Shown: one piece after another, positions 3,371-22,957 of the stretch | Layout: the number at the start of each line of letters is the position of its first letter | Position numbering within the stretch: the first letter of the stretch is position 1 | Origin: Bacteroidales bacterium | GTDB lineage: Bacteria; Bacteroidota; Bacteroidia; Bacteroidales; UBA932 | Direction: 5' to 3' | DNA length: 35,705 nt | Assembly: GCA_017477465.1 (NCBI GenBank) | Contig: JAFUVU010000047.1 | Coordinates: 1 to 35,705, forward strand | Notes under the pieces: generated by a model | Databases searched by the model: none | Told to the model about the DNA's origin: nothing | What the model saw: the letters and a program-made list of their open reading frames with translations, nothing else | Made by a program: the position numbers and the translations under genes

Positions 3371-5593
3371 TTAGATCGAAAATTCAAGGTCGGCCTTTAT
3401 ATCGGCGGAAGAGAAGCCGATCAGGGCGTGGAACTCGCCGGGTTCGGCCACCCATTCGTGCTTGTCGGCATCGAAGAAGCTGAGGGCGTCTTTGCCGAAG
3501 CTCATCTCTATGCGACGGCTCTCGCCCGGCCCCAGGTACACTTTTTCGAAGCCTTTAAGCTCCTTGGAAGGGCGCTCGACGGATGCCTCGGTGTCGCTGA
3601 TATAGAGCTGAACCACCTCAGCGCCAGCCACTTCGCCGGTATTGCGAAGAGTTGCCGACACTGTCCAGCCGCTGCCGGAACGCTTGATGGAAGCATCGGC
3701 AAGTTCAAAGCTTGTATAGCTGAGTCCATGGCCGAAAGCGTACTGCACGGGGATGTTCTTAGTATCATACCAGCGATAGCCGATGAAGACGCCTTCGTCG
3801 TAATACTCCTGCCACCACTTATTGCCTTCTTCCTTGATGCCGGGGTACTGGCGAGGGGTCTTGAGAGGGCCGTCGGCAAGGGCCAGAGGCATGGTGAAAG
3901 GAAGCTTGCCTGAAGGGTTCACTGCGCCGGTGAGGACGTCCACGAGGGCGTGTCCGCTCTCGGAGCCGCCGTACCAGCCCTGGACGATGGCGTTCACCTT
4001 GTCGGCCCAAGGCATGGCGCAAGGGCTGCCGGAGATATTCACTACCACCATCGGCTTACCCGTTGCTGCAAGCGCCTCAATCAGAGCATCTTGGCCGTAG
4101 GGCAGGACAATATCTTCGCGGTCCGTGCCTTCGTTGTCCTGGTATTTGCTCTTGTTGAGACCGCCGATGAAAAGGATGCAGGAAGCATCTTGGGCCGATG
4201 CCACCGCCGCGGCCGTAAGCTGCTCAGCGCTACGGCTGTCGGCAAGATTCTGGCCAGTGACAACCTTGTTGTAAACGGTTGTGGTGTCGCCTACGTAGCC
4301 GCGCTCCCAGACCACATCGGCCTTGCCGTCGAAGGCCTCGTGAAGGGCGTCCAGAGGAATCACCTCGTACTTGGTTTTGAGGTTGGAGGAGCCGCCGCCC
4401 ACCACCATCATCTTGTAGGCGTTCTCGCCCACTATCAGGAGTTTACCGCCCTGAGGGACCTGCAGAGGCAGGGTGCCGTCGTTCTTGAGGAGCACAAGGC
4501 CGTCGGCAGCAATCTTGCGCGCTGCGGCGAAATGCTCGGGCGAGGTGAAACTGCCGAAGTGCTGCTCCGGAGCCATGGAGGTGCGGAAGATGGTTCTGAG
4601 GACGCGGGAGGCCTTGTCGTTCAGACCTTCCTCGCTGGCGCGGCCGTCGCGGAGGCGCTCCAGGTAAGGCTTGGCCAGATGATAATTGCTATAACTGTCT
4701 GACGCATTGCCGCTTAGGCCGTTTGTCCAGGTGCCCATCTCAATGTCCAGGCCATTGGCTGCAGCCTCGTCGTCGTCGCGGCATCCGCCCCAGTCGCTCA
4801 CCACTACGCCGTCAAAGCCCCACTCGTCCTTGAGGATGTCGCAGAGGAGCTTCTTGTTGTGGCAGTTGAACTGGCCGTTATAAAGATTGTACGAGCCCAT
4901 GATAGCCCATGCGCCACCTTCCTTAACGGCAGCCTTGAAGGCCGGCAGATAAATCTCGTAGAGGGTGCGGTCGTCCACTATGGAGTTGGTGGAAGTGCGC
5001 TTTGTCTCCTGGTTGTTGACGGCGAAGTGCTTCACGCAGGCGGCCACGCCATTTGCCTGGACTCCCTGAATATAAGGCACTACCAGCTGTCCGGCGAGGT
5101 ACGGGTCTTCGCCCATGTACTCGAAGGTGCGGCCGTTTAGCGGGGTACGGCCCATATTGATGCCGGGGCCAAGAAGGATGTCCTTCTCGCGATACTTGGC
5201 TTCCTGGCCGATGCAGTCGCCATACAGGCGGCTAAGTTCCCTGTCCCAGGTGGCGGCAAGGTTCACAAGTGCGGGGAAAGCCGTGCAGGAGTCGTTGGTC
5301 CAGCCGGCCTGGTCCCATTCGTCCCAGAGAACCTCGGGGCGGATTCCGTGAGGGCCGTCGGTGTGCCAGAGCTCCGGAATACCCAGTCTGGGCACGCCGG
5401 CGCTGGAAAACTTCGACTGAGCGTGGGTGATGGCGACCTTCTCCTCCAGCGTCATCCGCTGCAGGGCATCCTGCACCCGCTCCTCAAGCGGAGCTTCTGG
5501 GTTAAGGTACACGGGTCCATCGGCCCTCTTCTTGGGAGAGCAACTCAATACCAGCAGCAAAGCCGCCGCTGCAACAAAAAATCTGTGGCGCAT
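3371..5593 (-). CDS. GH3 beta-glucosidase-like lipoprotein
   Basis: This is a 740-residue glycoside hydrolase family 3 enzyme. The N-terminus is a lipoprotein signal with the modified Cys at 18 (VLSC). The GH3 N domain (about 35-330) contains the KHFAVNNQE substrate-binding segment and VVVSDWGG with the nucleophile Asp267. The GH3 C domain (about 370-620) contains the NEGTDRED loop expected near the acid/base. A fibronectin-III-like domain ends the protein. Family activity is exo-cleavage of beta-linked glucose, or sometimes xylose, from oligosaccharides, most likely in the periplasm. It heads a two-gene unit with the SGNH esterase. Its start codon lies inside palindromic element A, so the element forms its 5' leader. 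Exact specificity cannot be read from sequence. Confidence 0.92.
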   Translation of the reverse strand: MRHRFFVAAAALLLVLSCSPKKRADGPVYLNPEAPLEERVQDALQRMTLEEKVAITHAQSKFSSAGVPRLGIPELWHTDGPHGIRPEVLWDEWDQAGWTNDSCTAFPALVNLAATWDRELSRLYGDCIGQEAKYREKDILLGPGINMGRTPLNGRTFEYMGEDPYLAGQLVVPYIQGVQANGVAACVKHFAVNNQETKRTSTNSIVDDRTLYEIYLPAFKAAVKEGGAWAIMGSYNLYNGQFNCHNKKLLCDILKDEWGFDGVVVSDWGGCRDDDEAAANGLDIEMGTWTNGLSGNASDSYSNYHLAKPYLERLRDGRASEEGLNDKASRVLRTIFRTSMAPEQHFGSFTSPEHFAAARKIAADGLVLLKNDGTLPLQVPQGGKLLIVGENAYKMMVVGGGSSNLKTKYEVIPLDALHEAFDGKADVVWERGYVGDTTTVYNKVVTGQNLADSRSAEQLTAAAVASAQDASCILFIGGLNKSKYQDNEGTDREDIVLPYGQDALIEALAATGKPMVVVNISGSPCAMPWADKVNAIVQGWYGGSESGHALVDVLTGAVNPSGKLPFTMPLALADGPLKTPRQYPGIKEEGNKWWQEYYDEGVFIGYRWYDTKNIPVQYAFGHGLSYTSFELADASIKRSGSGWTVSATLRNTGEVAGAEVVQLYISDTEASVERPSKELKGFEKVYLGPGESRRIEMSFGKDALSFFDADKHEWVAEPGEFHALIGFSSADIKADLEFSI

Positions 5594-5691
5594 AATATAT
5601 TAACAATCAATAATTTCCTGAAATCAAGTGTGTCTTTTTGCCGCACTTGATTTTCACAAATCGCTGTGGGATAGGGATTTACGTGACAAGC
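5583..5691. repeat. 109-bp palindromic element, copy A
   Basis: The core is at 5621-5653: AAATCAAGTGTG, a 9-nt loop TCTTTTTGC, then CGCACTTGATTT. Applying the common 38-33-38 geometry places the ends at 5583 and 5691. The right end (TTACGTGACAAG) is recognisable against the other copies, while the left arm is degenerate. It lies between the divergent GH3 and nitroreductase genes and overlaps the GH3 start codon (5591-5593). Confidence 0.8.
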
Positions 5692-6550: not shown

Positions 6551-7324
6551 ATGAAAACCATTAAACTATTCTTGGCCGGCGCGTTACTGATTGCTGCCAT
6601 GCCGGCCGGCGCACAGAATATTTGCGCACACAGAGGTTTCTGGAAGTGCAAGGAAGCTCATAAAACGCAGAATTCCATTGCGTCGCTCCGTCTTGCGCAG
6701 GAAAACGAATTCTGGGGCAGCGAGTTTGACGTCCATCTGACGGCCGATGACGTAATAGTAGTAAACCACGACCCTTCCCTCAACGGAATTCCCATTCATA
6801 CAAGCACTTACGCCAAGCTCTTGGAAACCAAGCTCAAGAATGGCGAGTCCATCCCCACCCTGGACCAGTACATCGAGCAGGGCACCAAGTCCGATTGCGT
6901 GATGGTTCTGGAAATCAAGCCCCAGGACACCGAGGAGAGGACCCTGCAGCTAACATCGGCATGCATGGAAGCGCTCAAAAGGCACGATATGCTGGACCCT
7001 AAGCGCGTGATGTTCATATCCTTCAGCTACGCGGCCTGCGAATGGATAGCCCGCGAGCTTCCGGAGTTCACCAACCAGTACCTGAGCGGCGACAAGGATC
7101 CCGAAACCGTCCACGCAAGCGGCATCAACGGCATTGATTATCACTATATTGCTTTTTACCGCCATCCGGACTGGGTGGAGCGTGCCCACAAACTCGGAAT
7201 GAGCGTGAACGTATGGACGGTGGACTGCAAAAAGGTAATGCGCTACGTCCGCGACCTTGGAGTGGACGCCATCACCACCAACAAACCTTTGGTAGCAAGG
7301 GAGATTATGAGCAAATCAAAATAA
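6551..7324 (+). CDS. Secreted glycerophosphodiester phosphodiesterase-family protein
   Basis: Starting at the ATG at 6551, the product is 257 residues with a clear signal peptide (MKTIKLFLAG to AGAQ, about residues 1-22). An in-frame upstream start at 6476 would put 25 non-signal residues in front, so it was rejected. The GDPD TIM-barrel motifs are present: HRG at 27-29, the ExD pair Glu58 and Asp60, His73 (NHDPSLNG), a Glu in VLEIKP and a late WTVD strand. Family members cleave glycerophosphodiesters to glycerol-3-phosphate and an alcohol, here probably in the periplasm. polA begins 18 nt after its stop codon but has its own promoter box. Confidence 0.88.
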   Translation: MKTIKLFLAGALLIAAMPAGAQNICAHRGFWKCKEAHKTQNSIASLRLAQENEFWGSEFDVHLTADDVIVVNHDPSLNGIPIHTSTYAKLLETKLKNGESIPTLDQYIEQGTKSDCVMVLEIKPQDTEERTLQLTSACMEALKRHDMLDPKRVMFISFSYAACEWIARELPEFTNQYLSGDKDPETVHASGINGIDYHYIAFYRHPDWVERAHKLGMSVNVWTVDCKKVMRYVRDLGVDAITTNKPLVAREIMSKSK

Positions 7325-7328
7325 TTAG

Positions 7329-7336
7329 TATCTTTG
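7329..7336 (+). promoter_or_regulatory. Putative -7 box for polA
   Basis: TATCTTTG lies only 6 nt before the polA ATG at 7343. If it is used, transcription would begin at or next to the start codon, giving a leaderless or near-leaderless mRNA. Confidence 0.45.
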
Positions 7337-7342
7337 AGGATT

Positions 7343-10060
7343 ATGGCGTCAAAACTATTCCTCATAGACGGTCATGCGCTGGTTTTCAAGATGTATTATG
7401 CCTTCCAGCGCAGGCCGATGATAAACTCCAAAGGGGCCGACACATCCATCCTCTTCGGATTCACCAAGTACCTTCTGGAGATGTTCCACCGCGAATCGCC
7501 CACGCACGTGGCGGTAGCCTTCGACCCTCCGGGCGGCACTTTCCGCAATAAACTGTATCCGGATTACAAAGGGACACGCCCCCCTACCCCGCAGCTTGTC
7601 ATAGACTCTCTGGAGCCGCTGACGGAACTGGTCCGTGCGATGAACATCCCCGTAGTGATGGTCCCAGGCTTCGAGGCCGATGACGTAATCGGCTCAATCA
7701 CAGCGCAGTTCAGCGGCCCGGACTTAGATGTGTACATGGTAACGCCGGACAAGGACTACGGACAGCTGATCGGGGAGCACGCCTTCCAGTTGAAGCCCGG
7801 CAAAAGCGGGGCCGATGCAGAAATTCTGGGCATCAAGGAGCTATGCGAAAAATGGGGCATCGAGAGCCCCTCGCAAGTCGTGGACATGCTAACAATCTGC
7901 GGCGACACGGCCGACAACGTCCCCGGCGTAAAGGGAGTGGGAGAAGTCGGAGCGGCCAAGCTGATTGCACGCTTCGGCACGCTGGAAAACATCTACGCAC
8001 ATATCGATGAGCTAAGCCCCCGCCAGAAGGAGCAATTCCTCCACGCCAAGCCGCATATAGCTCTTTCCAAGGAACTGGTCACCATTAAAACAGACATGCA
8101 GCTGCCTGTGACCCTGGAAGATATGCGCTACAGCGGCCAGTTCAAACCGCAACTTGCCGATTTATTCGAAAAATACGAATTCAGCTCGCTGAAAAGGCAT
8201 CTCACAGGGCATCTGGAGGGTTCGGCGGAGGCAGAAGGGCTGTTCGCCGCAGCTTCGGACGGCTCCGGCAGTGCATCGGAAGGCACTTCTTCAGAACCTG
8301 CCTTCAACTACAGGGAAACAACCCTGGAAGAAGTGGCATCGGCAGCCAAAAGGGCCGGGAAAATCGGCCTCATAGTGGAATCATGGGGCGAAGGCATGTT
8401 TGCCCCGCTGAAAAGGATAATCCTCTCTGCGAGAGATTCCTCGGCTTCGCTCGGAATGACACCACCTCCAGTGTTAGTTACTGTCATACCGAGCGAGCGA
8501 AGCGAGTCGAGCGTATCTCTTCTGCAGGACCCTGCAGTCGCCAAATTCGGGGCCAACCTCAAATTGGCTTCGCACATCCTCGAATCGGCCGGGATAAAGC
8601 TTTGCGGGAATTGGAACGACGTGCAGCTCATGCACTATGTGCTTGATCCGGAGAAGAGCCACGACGTCGCGCTCCTGGCGCAGACTTACCTTGGCATCTC
8701 CCTGGAAGAAACTGGCGCAGAGGCGGTTACAGGCTCACTGTTTGACGACGAGCCGTCCTCCGAGCCCACCCGTCTCAAGGAAGCGGCAGCCCTTGTCCCG
8801 CTGGGCGAAAAGCTTCAGGAACAGTTACCCTCCTTCTACGACGACATGGAGGAGCCGCTATCCAAAGTCCTCGCCCGAATGGAGCGCGACGGCGTGAAAG
8901 TTGACATCGGCCAGCTTAAAGTTTATGCCGATGGCCTCCGCAGCGAAATGCTGGAGCGTGAACAGCGCATACGTGAAATGGCCGGTGAGCCTTCGCTGAA
9001 CATCTCGTCGCCTAAGCAGGTAGGCGAAGTGCTCTTTGACAAGCTGAAACTGGATCCGAAGGCGAAAAAGAGCGGTGCCAAAGGCCAGTATCCGACGGAC
9101 GAAGCCACACTCGTTGCTCTGGCCGACCGGCATCCGATAGTGGACGAAATTTTGGAATTCAGGGCCGTCAAAAAGCTCCTTTCCACATACATCGAGCCTT
9201 TCCCCGGCTACATATCGCCTAGGGACGGGCGCGTGCATACGACTTTCAATCAGGCACTTACGGCAACGGGAAGGCTATCGTCCTCCAATCCCAACCTCCA
9301 GAACATCCCCATCCGCACGGAAAGGGGCAAGGAGATACGCAAAGCCTTTGTGCCCGGGAGGCCTGGCGGGGTGATAGTATCGGCCGACTACTCACAGATA
9401 GAACTTAGGATCATGGCGCACCTTTCGGGGGACGAGCATCTGATCCAGGCCTTCCGCAATGGGGTGGACGTGCATGCCGCTACCGCCAGCAAAATCTTCG
9501 GCATTCCTGTTTCCGAAGTTACCCGCGAGCAGCGCGGCATCGCCAAAACCGCCAACTTCGGCATCATGTACGGCATCTCGTCCTTCGGCCTGGCACAGCG
9601 GCTGCACCTTTCGCGCAGTGCCGCTAAGGAGCTGATAGACGGGTACTTCGACTCCTTCCCTTCCATCCGCAACTTCATCGACGGCAGTGTCGCCTTCGCC
9701 AAGGAGCACGGCTACGTAGAAACCCTCTTCGGCCGCCGACGCTACCTGCCGGACATCCTTTCCCGTAACGCCACCATCCGTTCTCTGGCCGAAAGGAATG
9801 CCGTAAACGCCCCGATCCAGGGGACATCGGCCGATATTATCAAGCTGGCGATGATAGGCGTGGCGCAAAGGATCGATGAGGAAGGGCTGCGCTCCCGCAT
9901 GGTGCTGCAGATACACGACGAGCTTGTCTTCGACGCTCTGCCGGAGGAAGTGCCTCAGCTTCAGGCTCTTGTAAAAGAAGTCATGGAGCATGTCCTGGAA
10001 CTGTCGGTCCCGCTGACGGTTGAATGCTCTGCCGGCGCCTCCTGGCTGGAGGCTCATTGA
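7343..10060 (+). CDS. polA: DNA polymerase I
   Basis: The product is 905 residues from the ATG at 7343 (MASKLFLIDGHALVF); an upstream TTG adds only three codons. The 5' nuclease domain (about 1-290) has LIDG, a DPPGGTFR segment, GFEADDVIG and a helix-hairpin-helix GVKGVGEVGAAKL. The polymerase domain (about 500-905) has motif A DYSQIELR, motif B around RGIAKTANFGIMYG and motif C QIHDELV, so polymerase activity is expected. The middle domain, normally the 3'-5' exonuclease, lacks the DxE motif (it reads GLIVESWGEG) and the final Asp (EAAALVPL). It also carries a repeat-derived insert at about residues 360-394. Proofreading is therefore probably lost. Role: Okazaki fragment processing and repair. 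Confidence 0.96.
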   Translation: MASKLFLIDGHALVFKMYYAFQRRPMINSKGADTSILFGFTKYLLEMFHRESPTHVAVAFDPPGGTFRNKLYPDYKGTRPPTPQLVIDSLEPLTELVRAMNIPVVMVPGFEADDVIGSITAQFSGPDLDVYMVTPDKDYGQLIGEHAFQLKPGKSGADAEILGIKELCEKWGIESPSQVVDMLTICGDTADNVPGVKGVGEVGAAKLIARFGTLENIYAHIDELSPRQKEQFLHAKPHIALSKELVTIKTDMQLPVTLEDMRYSGQFKPQLADLFEKYEFSSLKRHLTGHLEGSAEAEGLFAAASDGSGSASEGTSSEPAFNYRETTLEEVASAAKRAGKIGLIVESWGEGMFAPLKRIILSARDSSASLGMTPPPVLVTVIPSERSESSVSLLQDPAVAKFGANLKLASHILESAGIKLCGNWNDVQLMHYVLDPEKSHDVALLAQTYLGISLEETGAEAVTGSLFDDEPSSEPTRLKEAAALVPLGEKLQEQLPSFYDDMEEPLSKVLARMERDGVKVDIGQLKVYADGLRSEMLEREQRIREMAGEPSLNISSPKQVGEVLFDKLKLDPKAKKSGAKGQYPTDEATLVALADRHPIVDEILEFRAVKKLLSTYIEPFPGYISPRDGRVHTTFNQALTATGRLSSSNPNLQNIPIRTERGKEIRKAFVPGRPGGVIVSADYSQIELRIMAHLSGDEHLIQAFRNGVDVHAATASKIFGIPVSEVTREQRGIAKTANFGIMYGISSFGLAQRLHLSRSAAKELIDGYFDSFPSIRNFIDGSVAFAKEHGYVETLFGRRRYLPDILSRNATIRSLAERNAVNAPIQGTSADIIKLAMIGVAQRIDEEGLRSRMVLQIHDELVFDALPEEVPQLQALVKEVMEHVLELSVPLTVECSAGASWLEAH
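8421..8523. repeat. Dispersed repeat family 2, inverted pair inside polA
   Basis: Two copies face each other: one reads GAGAGATTCC ... CTTCGCTCGGAATGAC (8431-8460) and the other is its inverse, GTCATACCGAGCG ... CGTATCTCTTC (8483-8523). They are separated by 22 nt. The whole stretch stays in frame with polA and encodes about 35 residues including SSASLGMT and VIPSERSESS, which do not look like polymerase sequence. Confidence 0.7.
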
Positions 10061-10109
10061 TGACATGCTGCCGACCATTGTACAACCTTTTGTTATTCTG
10101 CCACCCTCT

Positions 10110-10135
10110 GTCATTCTGAACGAAGTGAAGAATCT
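10110..10135 (-). repeat. Dispersed repeat family 2, copy before the sigma-factor gene
   Basis: The stretch GTCATTCTGAAC...GAAGAATCT is the inverse of the family pattern and ends exactly at the base before the ATG at 10136. It forms the immediate leader of the sigma-factor gene. Confidence 0.55.
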
Positions 10136-10708
10136 ATGGAAAAAGATGAAAAGAAAATAATCGAGCAGGCGCTGTCGGGCAATCAGACCGCTTTCCGGAT
10201 GCTCTACCAGATTCACGAGCCGGCCGTCCGCGGCAGGGTCAGCGGCTATTTCAAATGGAAGGCCGATGTTGACGATGTCGTAAGCGAAAGCTTCCAGAAG
10301 GCATTTTCGGCCCTGGGAGCCTTCGACACTTCGCGCGAATTTCGGCCCTGGCTGCTTACCATTGCCACAAGGACGGCGCTGGACCACCTGAGCAGCATTC
10401 AGCGGGAAGACCAGAAGAAGGAAGGCATCCTGCACAAAGCGGCGACAGAAGGCACCGAGGGCGCCCAACTAACCGACTTCACCCCCGAGGAGGAAATAAT
10501 CAACGATGAGGTACACCAGCGCCTGATGGGCTACATCGACGAGCTCCCTTCCCTTTATAAAGACGTGATGATCAAGTACATGATAGAAGAACTGGAATAC
10601 GAAGAAATAGCCCGGGACCTGGACTTGGAGCTAAATACGGTACGCACGCGCATCCGCCGGGGCAAGCAGCACCTTGCGCAAATGATGCTAAGGGGGGAAG
10701 TGGAATGA
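10136..10708 (+). CDS. Sigma-70 family (ECF-type) RNA polymerase sigma factor
   Basis: This is a 190-residue two-domain sigma factor. Region 2 (about 18-90) includes the DVDDVVSESFQKAF segment for core binding and -10 recognition (FRPWLLTIATRTALDHL). Region 4 (about 130-185) has the helix-turn-helix LEYEEIARDLDLELNTVRTRIRRGKQHL. Domain content and length match ECF (group 4) factors. No anti-sigma gene follows; instead its stop codon overlaps the rsmG start codon (ATGA), indicating translational coupling. The regulon is unknown. The immediate upstream bases are a dispersed repeat, so no usual ribosome-binding site is visible. Confidence 0.9.
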   Translation: MEKDEKKIIEQALSGNQTAFRMLYQIHEPAVRGRVSGYFKWKADVDDVVSESFQKAFSALGAFDTSREFRPWLLTIATRTALDHLSSIQREDQKKEGILHKAATEGTEGAQLTDFTPEEEIINDEVHQRLMGYIDELPSLYKDVMIKYMIEELEYEEIARDLDLELNTVRTRIRRGKQHLAQMMLRGEVE

Positions 10709-11349
10709 ACTGGAAAGAACTGCTAAGCACAAGCTTCGAGCTGACTCCGGCCCAGTGGTCGGCCTTCGAAGCATTGGACGACCTCTACCGGGACTGGAAT
10801 TCCCGGATCAACGTCATTTCGCGCAAAGACATAGACGCTGTCTATGACCACCACGTCCTGCATTCCCTGGCAATAGGCCGATACCTCCAGACCCGTCCCG
10901 CCCTTTGGGAGGAGTTCGCCACTTCGTGCGTGCTCGACCTTGGCACCGGCGGCGGATTTCCGGGCATCCCGCTGGCCATCCTTTTTCCCCGGGCCAACTT
11001 CGTCCTTTGCGATTCCGTTGGGAAAAAAACCATTGTCGCACAAGCGGTTGCATCGGCATTGAAACTGCCCAACGTGGAGGTTGTCAACGCCAGGGCCGAG
11101 TCCCTGGGCAGGACTTTCGACTTTGTGGTTTCCCGCGCCGTCGCTTCGCTGATCGATTTCTACCCCTGGGTAAAAGGCCGGTTCGACCGCGGCATCCTCT
11201 ACCTGAAAGGCGGCGACGTTGCCGAGGAACTGTCGGCCCTGATGGCCCGTTACCACCTGCCCGGCTCTTCCATCCACACCTGGCCCGTCTCAACCTGGCT
11301 CCAAGACCCCTACTACCAAGGCAAACTAGTAATCCACCTAGAGCCCTAA
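10705..11349 (+). CDS. rsmG: 16S rRNA (guanine-N7) methyltransferase RsmG (GidB)
   Basis: This 214-residue protein is typical of RsmG. The S-adenosylmethionine-binding loop LDLGTGGGFPGIPLA lies at about residues 77-91, with VLCDSVGKK (motif II) and VVSRAVASL further on. Family function is methylation of G527 in 16S rRNA; loss of activity gives low-level streptomycin resistance in other bacteria. It overlaps the sigma-factor gene by 4 nt. Palindromic element B begins one base after its stop codon. Confidence 0.95.
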   Translation: MNWKELLSTSFELTPAQWSAFEALDDLYRDWNSRINVISRKDIDAVYDHHVLHSLAIGRYLQTRPALWEEFATSCVLDLGTGGGFPGIPLAILFPRANFVLCDSVGKKTIVAQAVASALKLPNVEVVNARAESLGRTFDFVVSRAVASLIDFYPWVKGRFDRGILYLKGGDVAEELSALMARYHLPGSSIHTWPVSTWLQDPYYQGKLVIHLEP

Positions 11350-11458
11350 CCTCGACACGCAAACCCCTATCACTCAACAACTTACAGAAATCAAGTGTGA
11401 CTTTTTGCCACACTTGATTTTCACATTTCGCTGATTGTCAGGCATTTCCGTGACTAGG
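11350..11458. repeat. 109-bp palindromic element, copy B
   Basis: The core at 11388-11420 is a perfect 12-bp inverted repeat (AAATCAAGTGTG / CACACTTGATTT) around the loop ACTTTTTGC. The ends are CCTCGACACGCAA on the left and CCGTGACTAGG on the right. It starts one base after the rsmG stop. Its right arm contains the last codons and stop (11438-11440) of the RAYT gene. Confidence 0.92.
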
Positions 11459-12376
11459 GTCTTTCAGGGGCAGGTGGAGGTATTTGCGGAGTTGCTTGGG
11501 ACGGGCCTGGGTGCGATAGCTCAGCAGCTTGTAAAGCTCCCATTTGCGCTCGTCGGGAAGCGTCGGAATCTCCATAGGATTGCCGACGGCGCCTTGCTTG
11601 AGCAGGACGGCGGTGCAATCGGCATAGACAGTGTCGGTGTAATTGTCCCTGTCTTCCTTGATGTCGTAGTCGCTGCCGGTATTGTCGTGAAAAGCGCGGA
11701 CCATAGCCTCGTAACTACCATAGTATCTGATGGTTTCCTTAAAATCGACAATATTCCAAAGGCCGATGATATAGTCCGTCAGCTGCTGCTGTTCGCCGAG
11801 CGTAAGCCTCTTCCATATCCGCGACAGCATCCTGTAATTCAGATACTTACCTTGATTATAGCAGAGATCGACCTCCTTCAGCGCCTGCACCAGTGAGCGC
11901 CGGGCCTTCGACCTCACCAGAGGGGCCGAAAAAGGATGCGCGTCATTCACGTACGCCAGCAAATTCCAGCGGTACTCTTCGGGCAGATCGACAAGCTTGC
12001 GTTCCACGGCATTGTTGTAGCTATAGGCAATGGTGGTGCGCGCCTGCTTGTTGCCCAGCTTGACCGAGCTGTTGAAGTTGTGGTGGAACAGATCACCCTT
12101 CCTCCCCCGCGCCTTGTTCCAGAGGCCGGCGAAGATGCGGGTATATTCGGCAACGAAGGCCGATAATTCCTTAAGCCCATACACGACATTCACATGATGG
12201 ATGTGGTCCGGCATCGGGCTCAGCGCCAAGACGCTTATCTCCCTCCTCTTGGCAACTGTGCAAAAGACTGTGTAGAACACCAGATAATCGATAGCGGTGT
12301 AGAAAATGACCACTTTTCCCTGCGTCATCTGGCAGACGTGATGTACCTCGCCAGGGTAAACTTTTCGTTTTTTCAT
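11438..12376 (-). CDS. REP-associated tyrosine transposase (RAYT; Y1/HUH superfamily)
   Basis: This is a 312-residue protein. The N-terminal Y1 transposase domain (about 1-150) starts with the typical YPGEVHHV strand and has the metal-binding HUH motif in MPDHIHHV (His58 and His60). It then has LFHHNFNS and the helix carrying the probable nucleophile Tyr118 in YSYNNAVERKLVDLPEEYRW, equivalent to the YIxxNPV...PEEYPWSS block of RAYTs. The C-terminal half (about 150-312) is an extra helical region, ending in a possible DNA-binding helix PKQLRKYLHLP. RAYTs are single-copy domesticated relatives of IS200/IS605 transposases that cut single-stranded REP hairpins. Here the gene overlaps palindromic element B at its 3' end, and element C lies 0.7 kb upstream. 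This strengthens the assignment. Activity is inferred only. Confidence 0.88.
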   Translation of the reverse strand: MKKRKVYPGEVHHVCQMTQGKVVIFYTAIDYLVFYTVFCTVAKRREISVLALSPMPDHIHHVNVVYGLKELSAFVAEYTRIFAGLWNKARGRKGDLFHHNFNSSVKLGNKQARTTIAYSYNNAVERKLVDLPEEYRWNLLAYVNDAHPFSAPLVRSKARRSLVQALKEVDLCYNQGKYLNYRMLSRIWKRLTLGEQQQLTDYIIGLWNIVDFKETIRYYGSYEAMVRAFHDNTGSDYDIKEDRDNYTDTVYADCTAVLLKQGAVGNPMEIPTLPDERKWELYKLLSYRTQARPKQLRKYLHLPLKDPSHGNA

Positions 12377-12391
12377 AGTCGATTCTTTTTG

Positions 12392-12422
12392 CCAAGGTAT
12401 CCAATCGCCTTGGACAAAACAA
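12392..12422 (-). promoter_or_regulatory. Putative promoter of the RAYT gene
   Basis: On the minus strand, TTG, 20 nt, then TACCTTGG resembles the Bacteroidetes -33/-7 arrangement (one mismatch in TAnnTTTG). It sits 15 nt before the start codon. Confidence 0.35.
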
Positions 12423-12492
12423 GGATCGGGCGTCAGAATGTGTTGTTTTGCATGCTTTTTATCTGTTTTGCAGTATTTTTAGTGCAAAAAAA

Positions 12493-13065
12493 TTATTCCC
12501 AGCATACCCATGAGCGGTCTAAAAGGAGCTTTTTTGGCTCTCCGGGGGGACCTTGAATCTTGTAGAAAAGCCGCCTTTCGTCCTTTATCATCGCGGCGAA
12601 GGCAGCGTTTACCCGGGATATGTTCACATTGAGGTCGTTGTTGAAAATATCCAGAATACGTTGGACGCGATGCTCCGCCACCTCGGGCTCCAAACTGCGC
12701 ATGACACGCCTGTACAGCCCCAACATCTCATTTTTGTACAGGCCGATCTCCTTCAAAACTATCCCCTCCGGATGTCTTAGGAAAAGAAGCAGGATGGTCT
12801 TTGCCATCGGCCTTATTTTCAGCTCCTTAGGGCCGATAAATATTCTAAGCTCCCGGCTTATTCTGACACGCTCCGGGAGCAAAGGGACACTGGCATGTCT
12901 TCTGCTGTTGAGCTCCTTCAGTGTCAATTGCAGAAAGACGACCAGCTCCTCGGCCTGCTTTTCCTCCAGCAGCCCTACAAATCCGGTACTGTCCGCTTCC
13001 TCCAGCGCTGCATCGGCCCTCCAGCGCACGAAATACAGCAGCGATATTAATCCAAAATCCACCAT
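12493..13065 (-). CDS. Uncharacterised Bacteroidetes protein with winged-helix-like C-terminal region
   Basis: The product is 190 residues from the ATG at 13063-13065 (MVDFGLISLLYFV). A GTG further upstream lies inside element C and would add 23 non-conserved residues, so it was rejected. The N-terminal half is charged and helical. Residues about 75-170 (RIFIGPKELKIRPMAKTILLLFLRHPEGI, then FNNDLNVNISRVNAAFAAMI) look like the OmpR-type winged helix seen in a widespread uncharacterised Bacteroidetes family. No catalytic motif is visible. It may bind DNA, but the role is unknown. It lies just upstream of the RAYT on the same strand (116 nt gap), and the pair is bracketed by elements B and C. It could regulate the RAYT or be an unrelated neighbour. 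Confidence 0.6.
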   Translation of the reverse strand: MVDFGLISLLYFVRWRADAALEEADSTGFVGLLEEKQAEELVVFLQLTLKELNSRRHASVPLLPERVRISRELRIFIGPKELKIRPMAKTILLLFLRHPEGIVLKEIGLYKNEMLGLYRRVMRSLEPEVAEHRVQRILDIFNNDLNVNISRVNAAFAAMIKDERRLFYKIQGPPGEPKKLLLDRSWVCWE

Positions 13066-13072
13066 AAGTCCG

Positions 13073-13080
13073 CAAAGATA
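13073..13080 (-). promoter_or_regulatory. Putative -7 box for the winged-helix-like gene
   Basis: On the minus strand, TATCTTTG lies 7 nt before the ATG, again predicting a very short or absent leader. Element C ends about 30 bp further upstream. Confidence 0.45.
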
Positions 13081-13108
13081 CTCCTCCCCCCAAGAACCCC
13101 ACCCAAAA

Positions 13109-13217
13109 CCTCGACACGCAACTCTCTGATACACAGCAACTTGTTGAAATCAAGTGTGACTTTTTGCCACACTTGATTTCAGGAACTCGCTGTAGGACAG
13201 TCACTTGCGTGTCAAGG
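13109..13217. repeat. 109-bp palindromic element, copy C
   Basis: This is the best-preserved copy. The core at 13147-13179 has a 12-bp stem and loop ACTTTTTGC. The outer ends CCTCGACACGCAA and TTGCGTGTCAAGG are near-perfect inverse complements. Pairing continues with mismatches between core and ends, so the whole 109 bp could fold as one long hairpin. Confidence 0.93.
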
Positions 13218-13261
13218 CTTCACACGAACCGCGGCAACAGCGGGCCGCGGCACCAGCGCAC

Positions 13262-13294
13262 AAAAAAAACCGCAGGCCGATTGGGCTTGCGGTT
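13262..13294 (-). terminator. Intrinsic terminator of rpmH
   Basis: On the minus strand, AACCGCA-A-GCC, a short AATC-containing loop and GGC-C-TGCGGTT are followed by a run of T residues. This is a classical Rho-independent terminator placed 22 nt after the rpmH stop codon. Confidence 0.85.
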
Positions 13295-13316
13295 GAATTT
13301 CTTTGGTTGCAGGAGA

Positions 13317-13469
13317 CTACCAGCGATCTTCGTCTGATACTGAGAGTTTCTTGCGGGCGTGACGACGGCGGGCGCTGAGGACGCGGCGGCCGTTGGCGGA
13401 AGCCATGCGGGCGCGGAAGCCGTGCTTATTCACGCGCTTGCGACGGGAAGGTTGAAATGTTCTTTTCAT
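13317..13469 (-). CDS. rpmH: 50S ribosomal protein L34
   Basis: This 50-residue, very basic protein starts [18 protein letters not shown] and continues [17 protein letters not shown], the hallmark sequence of bacterial L34. The C-terminus ([10 protein letters not shown]) is slightly longer than in many species. It is a structural component of the large ribosomal subunit. It is transcribed alone, with a clear promoter and intrinsic terminator. It is not next to rnpA or dnaA as in many bacteria, which is common in Bacteroidetes. Confidence 0.97.
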
Positions 13470-13505
13470 GATATATCTTTTTTATATTTTTCGCGTAATG
13501 GACTG

Positions 13506-13537
13506 CAAAGTTAGTAATTCCAACTGAAAAAGCCAAA
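13506..13537 (-). promoter_or_regulatory. Promoter of rpmH
   Basis: On the minus strand, TTTG, exactly 20 nt, then TAACTTTG match the Bacteroidetes -33/-7 consensus. This leaves a leader of about 30 nt before the ATG. Confidence 0.75.
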
Positions 13538-13557
13538 TTTTTTTACAAATAAGCCAG

Positions 13558-13666
13558 CCTCGACACGCAAATAAATATCACTCAGCCAATTACAGAAATC
13601 AAGTGCGGCAAAAAGTCACACTTGATTTCAGGAAAACTCTGGGACACAGTTAGTTGTGTGCCACGG
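13558..13666. repeat. 109-bp palindromic element, copy D
   Basis: The core at 13596-13628 has the loop in the opposite orientation (GCAAAAAGT). The left end CCTCGACACGCAA is identical to copies B and C; the right end is TTGTGTGCCACGG. It lies between the rpmH promoter and the 3' end of the symporter gene. Confidence 0.92.
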
Positions 13667-13670
13667 TTTT

Positions 13671-15014
13671 TTACTTGCGGATGGGGTAGAGCTTCAACAG
13701 AAGCATAATCAGAATGGCTATTGCTGCGGGGAAGAGGGAGAACAGGGACCAGACCATGTGCTGGACGGATTCCAGGTTGGTAATGGTGACCACGGTCTCG
13801 CCTGTCACAGGGTCCTGGCTGGAAAGGAGGCCGGCAGCGCCGAGAAGCAAGGCGACAAGGGCGCCGGAGATGGCCGATCCAAACTTCTGAGCCATAGTCC
13901 CGGAGGAGAAAATAAGACCGGTGGAGGAGGTGCCGTTCTTCTCGGTGGCGTAGTCGGCCACATCGGCATACATTGACCAGAGAAGCGGAGAATAAATGCC
14001 GATACCGACAGACGTAACTATCACATTGGCAATCATTACCCAAATCCAGGCGGGATCCATGGGGATGAAGAAGAAGGCGATGGAGGAAACCGCGCAGATG
14101 ATGGCCGACCACATGAAGGCCTTGTGCTTGGATCCCACCCATTTGGTGAAGCGGGGCGTGAGGCCGCCGACAATCATGCACACAGCCTCGCCGAACATCA
14201 TGAAGACTGTGTAGTTGATGATGAGACCGGAGACGGTGACGTCGCCCTTCATGCAGTATTCAAACAGATATGCAGCCACGGCATAGCGGAAGCCGTTGAA
14301 GAAATTCGTGCATATGCCGATGAGCGTCAGGTAGATCCAGGGCTTGTTGTGGATGAGGTCGGCAAAGGGTTTGAGGGAGAACTTTTCGGCACGGACGGGC
14401 TCCAGCCTTTCCCTGGTGAGCAGGCCGCAGGCAAGGGTGCCCAAGGCAGCCACAGCGCCAAGCACGGCCCCCAGCACTGCGTACTGATGCGCAGGCGTGC
14501 CGCCGACCATCTTCTGCAGATAAGGGAAGGAAAAGAGCGTTATGAAGCCCATTGCGTAAGCCCCCACCATGCGGAACGACGAGAATTGGTTGCGCTCGTC
14601 GCTGTCGTCGGTCATCACGCCAAGAAGCGAGCCGTAGGGCACATTCACGGCGGTGTAAACGACCATCATGAGAAGGTACATGGCGTAGGCATAAATCCTG
14701 CGGCCGACGGGCCCGAAATCAGGCGTATAAAGCAGCAGGGCGAACACCAGCCCCAGAGGAATGGCTCCGAAAATAAGCCAGGGCCGATAAGTACCCCAGC
14801 GGGACTTGGTCCTGTCGGCCAGCGCGCCCATCAGAGGGTCGGTCACTACGTCGAACAGACGGGCAATGAGCATCAGCGCGCCCGCATCGGCAACAGTGAG
14901 GCCGAAGATATTGGTAAAGAAGAAGGGAAAAGCGATGGACATCACTTTCCAGGTGATTCCGCCGGCAGCGGCATCGCCCAGGCCATAGCCTATTTTTTCG
15001 GACAGTTTCGCCAT
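13671..15014 (-). CDS. GPH-family (MelB-like) sugar:cation symporter of the MFS
   Basis: The product is 447 residues with about 12 hydrophobic helices and an inner-membrane location. RLFDVVTDPLMGALADRT carries Asp55 and Asp59, at the same positions as the cation-site aspartates of MelB, and is followed by the RWGTYRPW loop typical of the glycoside-pentoside-hexuronide family. Family role is Na+ or H+ coupled uptake of oligosaccharides. The start codon overlaps the epimerase stop (TAATG), so translation is probably coupled. In mannan loci this transporter imports mannobiose or related disaccharides for the cytosolic epimerase and GH130. The specific sugar is inferred from context. Its stop codon is 4 bp from element D. 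Confidence 0.92.
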   Translation of the reverse strand: MAKLSEKIGYGLGDAAAGGITWKVMSIAFPFFFTNIFGLTVADAGALMLIARLFDVVTDPLMGALADRTKSRWGTYRPWLIFGAIPLGLVFALLLYTPDFGPVGRRIYAYAMYLLMMVVYTAVNVPYGSLLGVMTDDSDERNQFSSFRMVGAYAMGFITLFSFPYLQKMVGGTPAHQYAVLGAVLGAVAALGTLACGLLTRERLEPVRAEKFSLKPFADLIHNKPWIYLTLIGICTNFFNGFRYAVAAYLFEYCMKGDVTVSGLIINYTVFMMFGEAVCMIVGGLTPRFTKWVGSKHKAFMWSAIICAVSSIAFFFIPMDPAWIWVMIANVIVTSVGIGIYSPLLWSMYADVADYATEKNGTSSTGLIFSSGTMAQKFGSAISGALVALLLGAAGLLSSQDPVTGETVVTITNLESVQHMVWSLFSLFPAAIAILIMLLLKLYPIRK

Positions 15015-16201
15015 TAGATATCGAAGATTTTAAGAATTTGCAAACACATGCGGGTATTGTGATAGGGGCATTTCCAGAAGCCAGCCTTGGGGTTGGAACG
15101 GTCCAGGGAGCCATCGGGGAGCACGGCCCACCACCATTCGCCGCCTTCGCTATCGACAAGATTTTCGCGGATATAGGCCCACGCATCCATGGCCCTCTTA
15201 GCGCCAAGCGTATCGCCATGATATTTCCATAGCCAAAGATTGCCGACAACGGTCTCCGCCTGAACCCACCATTGCCGGGAATCGTCAAAGGAGCCATCCG
15301 GGAGCTTTTCGTAGCGCATCGAGCCATCGGCAAGAAGGCCTTCGTTGCCGGCGACGCCCATAGCAAAGGCCCAAGGACGCACGCGGGAAACAATATCCAG
15401 GTCTTTCAGGGCGAAAGCGCACTCCAAGGCAAGCCAGGACGTCTCGATGTCGTGCCCATAAGAAACGCCGCCGGGAAGCACGCTCCAGTCCCGCTTGAAA
15501 TAAAGCTGCAGATGCCCGGAAGGAGCCATAACTTTTAGGCCGATAATATCCAGCAGCTTCTCCACAGCCTCCCGGAGCCCTTCATCGGGCCATACCTGGT
15601 ACAGATTTGCATAAGCCTCCAGGATATGAAGATGGGAGTTCATGGTCTTGTCGGCATTTATGTCGTGGGCGCTGAGGGACATGTCCTCCAGCGGGGAGAA
15701 GTCACGCGAAAGGGCCTCGATGTAGCCGCCGTTTTCGGGATCGGCAAATTTGCTTTCCACTACCTTGTACAGGTTGATGGCATTTTTCAGCACTTCGTCG
15801 TCGCCTGTGACTTTGTACAGCTCGGCCAGGCCGTAGATGGCAAACCCTTGAGCGTAAAGCTGTTTCTTAGTGTCCAGGCGCTCCCCTGCCGATGTCACGC
15901 TCCAGTAAACGCCGCCGTACTTATGGTCGCAGAAATGCTCCAGGAAATAGTCCCTGGCATGCACCGCCGCAACCAGGTATTCGGTTTTGCGGAACTGCTG
16001 GAAGGCAGCGGCGAACGACCAGATAATACGGGCATTGAGGATAACTCCGCGCGGGGCGTCGTAAAGTACCTCGCCGGTGGAGGAAACCTCTCCGTAGAAG
16101 CCTCCGCGAGGGTCTTTGAGCCGCAGCCAGTACGGCAGGATATTTTCCGTCAGGTTCTCCCGAACCTCCTTCAAAAATATGTCAGTTCTGCTTTCTTTCA
16201 T
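15014..16201 (-). CDS. AGE-family disaccharide 2-epimerase (mannobiose/cellobiose 2-epimerase)
   Basis: This 395-residue (alpha/alpha)6-barrel protein has no signal peptide and is therefore cytosolic. Three catalytic-type histidines fall in the expected motifs and spacing of cellobiose 2-epimerases: His190 (NSHLHILEAY), His250 (SYGHDIETSW) and His381 (CPYHNTRMC). The reaction is reversible C2 epimerisation of the reducing-end sugar of beta-1,4 disaccharides. Because GH130 is in the same locus, mannobiose to mannosylglucose is the most likely physiological reaction. The gene is preceded by a perfect 18-bp palindrome 5 bp from the ATG and, further up, a structured inverted-repeat element that separates it from the GH3 gene. 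It may therefore have its own control. Confidence 0.92.
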   Translation of the reverse strand: MKESRTDIFLKEVRENLTENILPYWLRLKDPRGGFYGEVSSTGEVLYDAPRGVILNARIIWSFAAAFQQFRKTEYLVAAVHARDYFLEHFCDHKYGGVYWSVTSAGERLDTKKQLYAQGFAIYGLAELYKVTGDDEVLKNAINLYKVVESKFADPENGGYIEALSRDFSPLEDMSLSAHDINADKTMNSHLHILEAYANLYQVWPDEGLREAVEKLLDIIGLKVMAPSGHLQLYFKRDWSVLPGGVSYGHDIETSWLALECAFALKDLDIVSRVRPWAFAMGVAGNEGLLADGSMRYEKLPDGSFDDSRQWWVQAETVVGNLWLWKYHGDTLGAKRAMDAWAYIRENLVDSEGGEWWWAVLPDGSLDRSNPKAGFWKCPYHNTRMCLQILKIFDI

Positions 16202-16206
16202 ATATT

Positions 16207-16224
16207 AAACGTTTATAAACGTTT
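16207..16224. promoter_or_regulatory. Perfect 18-bp palindrome, candidate operator
   Basis: AAACGTTTATAAACGTTT is its own reverse complement and contains two AAACGTTT blocks. A central-CG palindrome of this kind is typical of LacI/GalR-type operators. It lies 5 bp upstream of the epimerase ATG, where a bound repressor or a leader hairpin would block expression. I did not find a second copy in the window. Confidence 0.5.
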
Positions 16225-16225
16225 C

Positions 16226-16350
16226 CAAGACATCGATCTTCCGAACCCTTCGTCGCTTCGCTCCTCGTCCCTCCCACTGCCCTGCGGGCAGCGGGCCCCT
16301 CCCATTCATGTGGCCATGGGCGGCCACAGGTTTGGAAGATCGATGTCTTG
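16226..16350. repeat. 125-bp element with 17-bp terminal inverted repeats
   Basis: CAAGACATCGATCTTCC (16226-16242) is perfectly inverted at 16334-16350, with four more pairs inward after one mismatch. Inside are two smaller hairpins, CTGCCC/GGGCAG and GTGGCC/GGCCAC. It fills the gap between the GH3 stop (4 bp away) and the epimerase operator. It could be a miniature mobile element or a structured intercistronic RNA. Confidence 0.7.
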
Positions 16351-16354
16351 TACA

Positions 16355-18655: not shown

Positions 18656-18657
18656 TA

Positions 18658-21412: not shown

Positions 21413-22852
21413 TCAATACTCCCAGTCATCGGAACGGAAGGGAGGGACCGGAATGCCGTTGGTTTTGGTGAGATTGGCGCCCATCCAGTTGCGGAAGCCG
21501 TAACGCACCGCCACCGGGTGGGGCACATCGGCACAGCGGACTATGAGGGTCTGGCCGTCCCAGTCCACTTCAGCATCGGCAAGATGGAACTGGCGGTCCT
21601 GCCCGGCGAGCTCGCAGCCTATCACCTTGCGCGAACTCATGGAGCCAAGGTTGGACCAGATTTGCGTGAGGCGCACTTTCACCGTGCCGTCTTCGCAGAA
21701 TTCCACTTTGTCAAGGCGCGGGAGCTCTATCGAGATGCCGGTTTCCATGCCATAGACGTTCTGCAGGGCGCGCTGGACCATCATGTCGGCAATTTCGCGC
21801 TTTTTGGGAGGATGGATTGTGGCCTGGTCGCCAAGGGTTTCCGCGCAAACGGCCCATGACTGGGGCAGAATCTTCTCCGTATTGAGCTGAGTCTGAATGA
21901 AATGCGGGCGCCATCGGCCATTGGAGTCGCCGTGGTCGTAAGGGGCGAGAAGAGTAAAGATAAAGGGCAGGTCGCGGCCCCATTCGCGGCGCCAAAGCTC
22001 CACCATCGCTTTCTGCAGCTTGTCATAGCACTTTTGGCCGATGTTGGAGCAACCCTGATACCAGAGGATGCCCTTCGCCGCATAGCCTGCAATCGGCTTT
22101 ACCCTGCCGTTCCAGATAAGTTCCGGGGTTTCGGGCCAGCGGTCCAGGTGCTCCTCGACTGCGTCGATGGCGGCCCTTTCTTCGGCCGTAATGCCCGAAG
22201 CGTCAAGCGCTTCCTTTGTCATCCAGCACTCGATGCGGCTGCCGCCCCAGGGGTTGGCGATAATGCCGACCGGCACGCCCAGCGTCTTTGTGAGCCGTCG
22301 GCCAAAAAAGTAAGCTATGGCCGACGTCCAGGCGGCGACGTTGCTTGTGGAGTACTGCCAGGTGGCATCGACATCGGCAATGGGCTTATAGCGGCGGGGC
22401 GTTTTTATGTTGAATATGCGCACGTCGGCAGCGGTTTCGGGGGCCGACATGATTGCGTCCGTGCCGCCTTCGACGCCCTGGAAGCCGAAACCTGCGAGTG
22501 GCATTTCCATGTTGGACTGGCCGCTGCATATCCACACTTCGCCGAGGACGATGTCCTGAAGCGTGATGCTTTCCTTGCCGCTCTTGATGCTGAGGGTGCG
22601 GGCTGTGCCATCGGCCTTGCCGGTGGTGAGGGTGATGCGCCAGGTACTGTCGGCCTGGACCTGAGTCTTATAGCGGGCGCCGTCCCATTTTACCTGCACA
22701 GTCTTGCCGGGCGTGCCCCAGCCCCACACAGGCACCGAGGTATCCTGCTGAAACACAGCATGATCGGAGAAAATATGCGCCACTCTCAGAGTCTGCCCCT
22801 GGGCAAACCCCGAAACAAGCAGCAAAGCAAAAATATAAAGAACTCTCTTCAT
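21413..22852 (-). CDS. SASA-family carbohydrate acetylesterase (sialate O-acetylesterase-like)
   Basis: The product is 479 residues from the ATG at 22852 (MKRVLYIFALLL), with a signal peptide ending near residue 20; an upstream in-frame start inside element E would bury the signal. The SGNH fold is indicated by GEVWICSGQSNMEMPL, with the likely nucleophile Ser113, by NPWGGSRIECW, and by ATIHPPKKREIADMM, which holds the catalytic His. The usual LWYQGESN block reads LWYQGCSN, a change of the conserved Glu to Cys. Members of this family remove O-acetyl groups from sugars. In a mannan-type PUL the likely substrate is acetylated mannan oligosaccharides rather than sialic acid. The leader is formed by palindromic element E. 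Confidence 0.88.
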   Translation of the reverse strand: MKRVLYIFALLLVSGFAQGQTLRVAHIFSDHAVFQQDTSVPVWGWGTPGKTVQVKWDGARYKTQVQADSTWRITLTTGKADGTARTLSIKSGKESITLQDIVLGEVWICSGQSNMEMPLAGFGFQGVEGGTDAIMSAPETAADVRIFNIKTPRRYKPIADVDATWQYSTSNVAAWTSAIAYFFGRRLTKTLGVPVGIIANPWGGSRIECWMTKEALDASGITAEERAAIDAVEEHLDRWPETPELIWNGRVKPIAGYAAKGILWYQGCSNIGQKCYDKLQKAMVELWRREWGRDLPFIFTLLAPYDHGDSNGRWRPHFIQTQLNTEKILPQSWAVCAETLGDQATIHPPKKREIADMMVQRALQNVYGMETGISIELPRLDKVEFCEDGTVKVRLTQIWSNLGSMSSRKVIGCELAGQDRQFHLADAEVDWDGQTLIVRCADVPHPVAVRYGFRNWMGANLTKTNGIPVPPFRSDDWEY

Positions 22853-22957
22853 GGCACGTAAACAATTGGTTATCAGCAAAATCCTGAAATCAAGTGTGGC
22901 AAAAAGTCACACTTGATTTCAGGAAGTGGTTCTATTTCAGGGAGTTGTGTGTCAAGG
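22849..22957. repeat. 109-bp palindromic element, copy E, inside the PUL operon
   Basis: The core at 22887-22919 is a perfect 12-bp inverted repeat with the loop GCAAAAAGT. The right end TTGTGTGTCAAGG matches copies C and D. The left arm (GGCACGTAA) is partly degenerate and overlaps the esterase start codon (22850-22852). The right arm contains the last codons and stop of GH130 (22932-22934). Confidence 0.88.

Follow-up and report, generated by a model that had tools for sequence, protein, structure and literature searches.

A 109-bp palindromic repeat family and a long-tailed RAYT at the rpmH locus of a Bacteroidales bacterium: a candidate RAYT/REPIN variant

A 35,705-nucleotide stretch of DNA from a Bacteroidales bacterium (contig JAFUVU010000047.1; the whole stretch is called the window below) carries five copies of a 109-bp palindromic element and, overlapping one of them, a gene for a RAYT (REP-associated tyrosine transposase, REP standing for repetitive extragenic palindrome). 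Our best reading is that the element and this long-tailed RAYT represent a new variant of the RAYT/REPIN plan, REPINs being inverted REP pairs with a spacer. The element very probably belongs to a non-autonomous, palindromic, REPIN-kind family of single-stranded DNA (ssDNA), spread within one lineage by a RAYT encoded at a conserved position in the chromosome. RAYT genes of this family mostly stand between or beside copies of their own hairpin element. For the three RAYTs of the rpmH-linked group that we tested, the elements are multicopy at home and absent from the relatives searched. Related bacteria have their own versions of the element, built to the same plan around a different central hairpin.

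RESULTS

The window holds five members of a genome-wide family

A first-pass annotation, made from the letters of the window, had described five element copies (A to E; Table 1) with a 38-33-38 layout and a 12-9-12 hairpin core, paired them with a RAYT, and suggested a genome-wide count. All five copies were found at exactly the positions it gave; they align without gaps across 109 columns, and the layout is correct for each. Of the two left arms it had called degenerate, that of copy A is so, while that of copy E is only partly degenerate. The source genome (G000) is a 2.42-Mb draft, 82.5% complete, of a gut bacterium. In it, a covariance model built from the five copies gave 147 matches on both strands, corresponding to 74 places of 109–111 bp each, of which the window copies are part; 73 of the 74 entered the genome-wide alignment of copies. 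A core pattern, with up to three mismatches permitted, matched G000 73 times and its reversed control never. An arm-only pattern, independent of the core, matched 114 times, versus 0 for its control. Among the 100 arm-pattern places listed, 98 coincide with known copies and the remaining two carry three mismatches. Each unit is made of two inverted arms, a REPIN-like trait, and as ssDNA the five window copies fold better than the mean of their dinucleotide shuffles (z from -2.40 to -5.77).

RAYT genes are flanked by hairpins of their own

We scanned GTDB contigs with a subset alignment of the protein and took the best 80 of 255 relatives, which with the window make 81 RAYT loci. The titles of these 80 contigs read Bacteroidales or Bacteroidia; in many a ruminant host or organ is mentioned (deer, goat, sheep, buffalo, yak), the others bearing codes alone. 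Hairpin density across the 81 loci peaked within ~125 bp 3' of the RAYT gene, at 5.66/kb. On the 5' side it reached 2.60/kb at 125–250 bp and 2.03/kb at 750–1000 bp, in the latter case with a companion gene, P2, lying between. Densities were 1.09/kb at 0–125 bp upstream, 1.01/kb at 125–250 bp downstream and 0.05–0.48/kb in the remaining bins. Hairpins occurred on both sides of the gene at 52 of the 81 loci, upstream only at 13, downstream only at 7 and on neither side at 9. Upstream and downstream hairpins matched (at least 8 nt exact) at 47 of the 52 two-sided loci; in a cross-locus control, 273 of 2652 hairpin pairs matched (10%), many of them joining related RAYTs. In the 45 loci where the hairpins match and the protein can be read, the similarity of the hairpins tracked that of the RAYTs (Mantel r 0.546, a value not reached by any of 2000 permutations). 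The window RAYT gene fits this pattern: REP-like hairpins of its own stand on both sides, and further copies of them are scattered through the genome.

Comparing 600-bp flanks by their longest common string told us little, partly because the upstream element of the rpmH-linked group sits 750–1000 bp off. The diagonal held the highest value of its row (ties counted) in 19 of 78 loci (3 of the 81 had a flank below 250 bp), and hairpin detection was used instead.

Dispersed hairpins are specific to their genomes

Searched in 100 other genomes of the genus, the window hairpin gave four single matches, all with three mismatches; the reversed control gave two single matches. Two of these genomes, G005 and G019, hold RAYTs orthologous to that of the window. 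The G005 hairpin is present in 63 copies in G005 and in none of 36 other genomes (22 of the same genus). The G019 hairpin has 40 copies at home and none in 29 others of the genus. With the matching hairpins at two-sided loci, these copy numbers for two further RAYTs uphold the proposed pairing of RAYT and repeat family. The annotation had also offered a test: its reading would fail if the family were equally abundant in relatives lacking the RAYT. The contrast of 73 copies with four weak matches in 100 genomes speaks in its favour but is not a clean comparison of genomes with and without the gene, the RAYT having been searched for in 36 of the 100 (24 with some match) and at least two, G005 and G019, holding an orthologous RAYT with its own hairpin.

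These data bear on the proposal that the repeats are miniature inverted-repeat transposable elements (MITEs) of a lost insertion sequence (IS), and that the RAYT merely lies among them, unrelated. The outer inverted ends do resemble the short terminal repeats of MITEs, and transposition by the RAYT is a deduction rather than a demonstration. However, the hairpins around RAYT genes match each other at 47 of the 52 two-sided loci and track RAYT similarity, and genomes with another RAYT hairpin lack that of the window. We regard a MITE origin as very improbable.

Of the dispersed copies, 57 of the 63 in G005 lay in retrieved stretches and 55 were used; for G019 the number was 24 of 40. Directly after the G005 RAYT, at about 3038–3415 of locus L199 (G005:C18), three element copies stand in tandem with 134-bp spacing, a local tandem amplification.

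Elements share a frame and are conserved from the inside out

We examined 187 arms of RAYT-flanking elements with matching hairpins; in 174 of them the motif TGAnnnTCA begins at a distance of 37–39 nt from the centre, ties in motif score being resolved towards 37 nt. A GTGR-like foot (G 0.61, T 0.70, G 0.60, G/A 0.80) lies ~15 nt outside this motif, ~52 nt from the centre. AA is found between foot and motif (0.93, 0.88), with TT inside (0.84, 0.92). The dispersed copies of G005 and G019 have the same frame as the RAYT-flanking elements. Given this agreement, and the fixed spacing across families, there is a family-wide frame in which the outer end and the central hairpin are the specific parts.

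Relative to published REPINs, constraint in the 73 G000 copies is inside-out: core and loop are nearly invariant and the arms vary. Mean pairwise identity is 0.974 for the 33-nt core with its loop, compared to 0.614 and 0.622 for the two arms; the outermost 13 positions of the element average 0.83–0.85 identity to the consensus. The published REPIN pattern of conserved ends, variable spacer and compensatory changes is not seen in the family. We considered whether core conservation could be an artefact of searching with the core. It is not, because 68 of the 73 copies fit the core pattern (which has four open letters) perfectly even though up to three mismatches were permitted, and because the arm-only search recovers the known copies.

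Two structural models were rejected. Folding of the whole 109 bp into one long base-paired hairpin finds no covariation, and pairing is below random: paired within their own copies, the arms form 1576 Watson–Crick pairs in total, versus 1705 ± 22 for randomly combined arms, with 0 of 1000 shuffles as low. A small hairpin in each arm (CTGAnnnTCAG) fares little better, with only one of four pairs (21–25, p 0.0125) beating shuffles when arms are pooled; TGAnnnTCA may simply be a bound sequence. The overall pattern suggests that the enzyme exerts selection on the core and that long perfect palindromes are selectively disfavoured.

Placement favours gene 3' ends

To place the copies relative to genes, we used simple open-frame calls and the same rules for copies and background: open reading frames (ORFs) of at least 120 aa and gaps of at most 600 bp, which left 17 of the 73 copies unclassified. 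Of the 56 classifiable copies, 26 lie between convergent genes, 24 between co-directional genes and 6 between divergent genes, compared to 15, 66 and 17 of 98 background gaps in the same DNA (Fisher p 5e-5). This analysis replaces an earlier one with unequal gene-length limits (copies: 33 convergent, 24 co-directional, 7 divergent and 9 edge of 73; background, under different limits: 20 of 125 convergent). Counting gene ends that overlap an element border or lie within 10 bp of it, we found 69 stop ends and 18 start ends, the latter number being unsure since ORFs run from the first possible start codon. At least one stop end lies at or within 10 bp of the border in 55 of the 73 copies.

Three of the 54 copies with both flanking ORFs lie outside the RAYT locus and have their orthologous gene pair in the relatives compared. 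All three face an element-free orthologous gap in a relative (L135, L172 and L178). The gap holding copy E is element-free in L135, and L131 carries its own hairpin type there (~19950–20060). Across the 73, 55 and 24 copies of the three genomes, a gap flanked on both sides by like genes was never occupied in two genomes except at the RAYT locus, a result of limited power as only 58, 39 and 22 of those copies had both flanking genes.

The chief rival explanation is that the elements are now host-kept sites, either two-way terminators or operators for a DNA-binding protein between convergent genes, and that the RAYT spread them long ago and is now inactive. Such a role would fit the near-invariant core and loop beside diverged arms, the share of copies between convergent genes and the stop codons near element borders. 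On the other hand, genome-specific cores and the lack, outside the RAYT locus, of a gap occupied in two of the three genomes are odd for conserved regulation, and the hairpins track the RAYT. Moreover, a simple terminator scan of window positions 5000–23500 flagged none of the five copies, although its loop limit was 8 and the 9-nt core loop may escape it. We take this possibility seriously but consider it unlikely. Still further from the data, and scarcely tenable in our judgement, is the idea that the hairpins are ordinary intrinsic terminators of neighbouring genes. It would account for their position at gene 3' ends; yet the 33-nt core is near-identical in 73 copies within a fixed 109-bp frame with conserved outer ends, and such genome-wide sequence identity excludes ordinary terminators as a full account. 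The same scan, with the same loop limit, did flag a hairpin after rpmH (13268–13294).

The RAYT protein has a conserved C-terminal region

The annotation had recognized an HUH gene with His58, His60 and a YxxxNxV-type Tyr motif. These two His residues and Tyr118 are invariant across 26 aligned sequences, the window protein included (L030, with one stop, and L038–L040, weak N-terminal matches, were excluded from alignment A3). The overlap it had noted with copy B is likewise real: the last 21 bp of the gene lie inside the element, which adjoins the rsmG stop codon and supplies the RAYT with its last six codons and stop. Its identification of the protein stands as to family, Y1 HUH/REP_Tyr_transpos, with the amendment that this is a non-standard RAYT with a long C-terminal region. 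All 26 aligned members match REP_Tyr_transpos and 25 match Pfam Y1_Tnp (E ≤ 0.01). They have in common a conserved C-terminal region that reaches to about residue 305. Alone, the window protein (P0001) scores E 5.6e-8 and 32.8 bits against NCBIfam REP_Tyr_transpos (NF047646; curated cut-off 80) and E 0.0039 and 17.7 bits against Pfam Y1_Tnp (curated cut-off 23). The HUH motif is DHxH in 17 of the 26 sequences and NHxH in 9. In the Y---NP motif, counted by eye, Y and N are present in all 26 and Pro in 21. The window protein reads DHIH and YSYNNA.

G000 has three full-length RAYT genes, the other two being 42% (G000:C17:67359-68264) and 36% (G000:C8:26051-26962) identical to that of the window. 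Low gene copy number is a RAYT trait, at odds with an IS, and G000 conforms to it. An IS200/IS605 insertion sequence was rejected, as we saw neither near-identical repeated transposase genes nor a Y---Q motif. In addition, 318–352-aa frames at G000:C2:27200, C72:2751, C56:20088 and C70:1398 match the RAYT profile in its N-terminal Y1 part only; these four places are possibly a second long RAYT-like group.

A search for the RAYT matched 25 of 61 genomes, all of the same genus and some weakly, in the N-terminal part; none of 24 genomes from other families of the order matched. In 149 genomes of the order, of which two belong to this genus and one to the same family but a different genus, full-length matches were confined to G000, the others reaching no further than model position 170. 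Searched singly against the PDB, the window protein gave two weak matches, both unrelated. With the RAYT profile, the N-terminal half gave weak matches to IS200-type proteins and to TnpAREP (E 0.34); weak profile matches of the C-terminal half to 14-3-3 were not credited. A PHROGs search gave no convincing match for the RAYT or P2.

The rpmH locus and its companion gene

The window RAYT lies between rsmG (gidB) and an ORF that we take to be rpmH, the gene for ribosomal protein L34. We define the rpmH group as the 32 loci (L104–L133, L135 and L137) whose RAYT is at least 50% identical to that of the window; the G005 and G019 RAYTs belong to it. Both rpmH and rsmG lie within ~3 kb in 30 of the 32 loci, the other two being on short stretches, and a protein 94–100% identical to the window rpmH product is encoded near the cassette in 30 of the 32 relatives. 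In the RAYT tree, the hairpin stem differs between clades and is mostly common within a clade. In all, 31 versions of this RAYT locus share their position (the window and 30 relatives that have both rpmH and rsmG nearby), with hairpins that differ between clades, and in the three genomes tested the whole scattered set of elements differs too. They form a natural series for mapping protein residues to hairpins and for following the joint change of an enzyme and dozens of its targets.

A P2 homologue stands beside the RAYT in all 32 loci. P2 has no family match; 18 aligned sequences have 33 invariant columns, and the motif HPEGI is invariant. Distant P2 relatives are also found in genomes without a RAYT match (G018 and G039, for example), and a distant paralogue, 28% identical, is present at G000:C60:33351-33923.

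Cassette orientation varies among the loci. In 18 (type I), rsmG, rpmH, P2 and RAYT all run in the same direction; in 11 (type II), the cassette is reversed. In the window it is the block rpmH-P2-RAYT that is reversed, with copies B and D forming its borders, and in L109 the RAYT alone is reversed relative to P2. At least seven orientation changes are needed on the RAYT tree, where shuffled labels average 10.3 (range 6–13). Labels cover 31 of the 32 tree rows: L112 is unlabelled, and L116, which lacks rsmG, was labelled by way of a major facilitator superfamily (MFS) gene. L132, L136 and L143, with a stop in the translated stretch, were excluded from the protein set, and hence L132 is not in the tree. 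Short-read assembly error is a possible source of the orientation changes, but would have to recur in separate assemblies.

DISCUSSION

A proposed mechanism and the points against it

We propose the following sequence of events. When a strand becomes single-stranded, as lagging-strand template or during excision, the central hairpin would fold. The Y1 domain, perhaps helped by the C-terminal region, would read stem and invariant loop as an identity tag, with the conserved parts of the arms serving as guide and cleavage-site sequences. Tyr118 would then cut and rejoin the DNA, and the unit would thereby be copied, or moved, into further intergenic sites. Fresh insertions would survive mainly at gene ends, where an arm may also bring stop codons. 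Long perfect palindromes would be selected against, and surviving copies would consequently have mismatched arms. Copies flanking the cassette may permit its inversion in place.

Several observations weigh against spread of a REPIN-kind family by this RAYT. The link between RAYT and element is a sequence association, from which we infer binding, cleavage and transposition. Nine of the 81 loci are without a nearby hairpin, 20 are one-sided, and at 5 of the 52 two-sided loci the hairpins do not match. RAYTs outside the rpmH group can be poor in element copies: the C17 RAYT of G000 has its own flanking hairpins, whose pattern matches once and nowhere else in the genome, and the hairpin of one G028 RAYT has six matches in G028 (three exact) and one chance match in G018. 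Taken alone, P0001 falls under the curated cut-offs of both NF047646 and Pfam Y1_Tnp, and it has Ala at the class 2 Pro position of Y---NP. GT[AG]G occurs in only 22 of 146 G000 arms, and not at the foot of the central hairpin, so the canonical REP foot is not found in these elements; other common letters at the foot position are TCGA (60) and TTGA (21). The long-hairpin model is without covariation support, same-copy arms being less complementary than random ones. The element-free sites come from distant species, and exact borders and target therefore cannot be fixed. Finally, away from the RAYT locus, 23 pairs of copies in different genomes have one flanking gene in common.

A further suggestion goes beyond this mechanism. 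RAYT, P2 and element might form a host-kept system, in which a RAYT at a fixed place would repeatedly turn over its own hairpin along with the genome-wide set and would use the flanking palindromes to flip its cassette, conceivably as an on/off switch; P2 would be necessary for mobilisation or control. We consider this quite doubtful.

Relation to known systems

The annotation had regarded a symmetric 109-bp unit as an oddity. Symmetry and size as such are not odd, given that REPINs are inverted REP pairs with a spacer; the reversed conservation and extra central hairpin are unusual. REPINs of Pseudomonas fluorescens SBW25 have invariant 16-mer ends, a less conserved spacer and frequent compensatory changes (PMC3116915). 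Like them, the 109-bp element is symmetric, extragenic, non-autonomous and linked to a Y1 RAYT, with many dispersed copies and one RAYT for each sequence group. Unlike them, it has a near-invariant middle hairpin and loop, variable arms, and arm pairing below random. Conservation of this inside-out kind suggests a wider REPIN plan than Pseudomonas alone had revealed.

TIRYTs and TIRtrons are RAYT-like genes flanked by longer inverted repeats unrelated to GTAG REPs, some of them self-complementary, some forming repeat families and some overlapping the end of the gene (PMC3733652). By description they are set apart from the present family: their shared motif is GGGGWSAS or GTAG-1, whereas here it is GTGR-AA-TGAnnnTCA at fixed spacing around a RAYT-specific centre (PMC3733652). 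P. putida and P. fluorescens have repeats, numbering in the hundreds, in which a degenerate GTAG unit is linked to an unrelated stem-loop (PMC3733652). These mixed repeats are close in plan, and we liken them in plan only, to GTGR-like arms around a specific hairpin (PMC3733652).

The E. coli TnpAREP/REPtron system (subclass 2.2) resembles ours in having an HUH motif, one Tyr and a gene flanked by its own REPs (PMC8266576). E. coli REPs are 29–37 nt long with a GTAG foot and a bulge, and features of both foot and hairpin matter to TnpAREP (PMC8266576). The window element, in contrast, is 109 bp and three-part, with GT[AG]G scarce in its arms, and the RAYT family is ~305 aa long compared to a median of 165 in subclass 2.2. 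Bacteroidetes TnpAREP proteins of subclass 2.6 have a median of 179 aa and the motifs NH[LIV]H and YIH[QN]NP (PMC6006769). They share with the window RAYT their phylum, 'atypical secondary structures' beside the gene and copies of these elsewhere in the genome. The window protein departs from the subclass 2.6 description in length (312 aa) and in both motifs, and its ~305-aa family has the conserved C-terminal region (PMC6006769). Subclasses 2.1 and 2.3 of TnpAY1, the former including most TIRYTs, have large C-terminal domains, and no REP-like sequences were found next to them (PMC6006769). The long protein with its C-terminal extension is like these, but one or both sides of the gene carry a hairpin at 72 of the 81 RAYT loci; the presence of REP-like hairpins next to a long-tailed RAYT is contrary to the pattern reported for the two subclasses (PMC6006769). 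The 'double foot' REPs of subclass 2.4 are similarly symmetric, with foot and complement at both ends. There GT[AG]G stands at the ends of long REPs, and here GTGR lies ~52 nt from the centre, outside TGAnnnTCA (PMC6006769).

That each tnpAREP gene has its own REP family was already known (PMC6006769). In the open-licence PMC literature searched, in the parts available, we did not find the combination of a ~305-aa RAYT with C-terminal region and a three-part 109-bp element with invariant centre. RAYTs have been described as tamed transposases, and what the host gains from them is an unsettled question (PMC8049555).

Features of the window

Table 1. Element copies and genes discussed, in window coordinates
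Feature	Position	Strand	Remarks
Copy A	5583..5691	+	Core 5621-5653; left arm degenerate
rsmG/gidB	10705..11349	+	Positional marker of the orthologous locus
Copy B	11350..11458	+	Core 11388-11420; 3' flank of P2-RAYT cassette
RAYT (Y1 HUH protein, 312 aa)	11438..12376	-	His58, His60, Tyr118; conserved C-terminal region
P2 (companion gene, ~190 aa)	12493..13065	-	No family match
Copy C	13109..13217	+	Core 13147-13179; 5' flank of P2-RAYT cassette; best fold of the five
rpmH	13317..13469	-	Positional marker; read from sequence
Copy D	13558..13666	-	Core 13596-13628; loop orientation opposite to copy B
Copy E	22849..22957	-	Core 22887-22919; between SASA-family gene and GH130 gene

Two other repeats were seen in the window. 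At its edge (1–162), a 58-nt repeat occurs three times with starts 52 bp apart, the second and third units being 97% and 88% like the first. An inverted repeat with 36-bp arms (16221–16256 and 16320–16355; 81% complementary, 63 bp apart) sits between the ends of a 395-aa and a 766-aa ORF.

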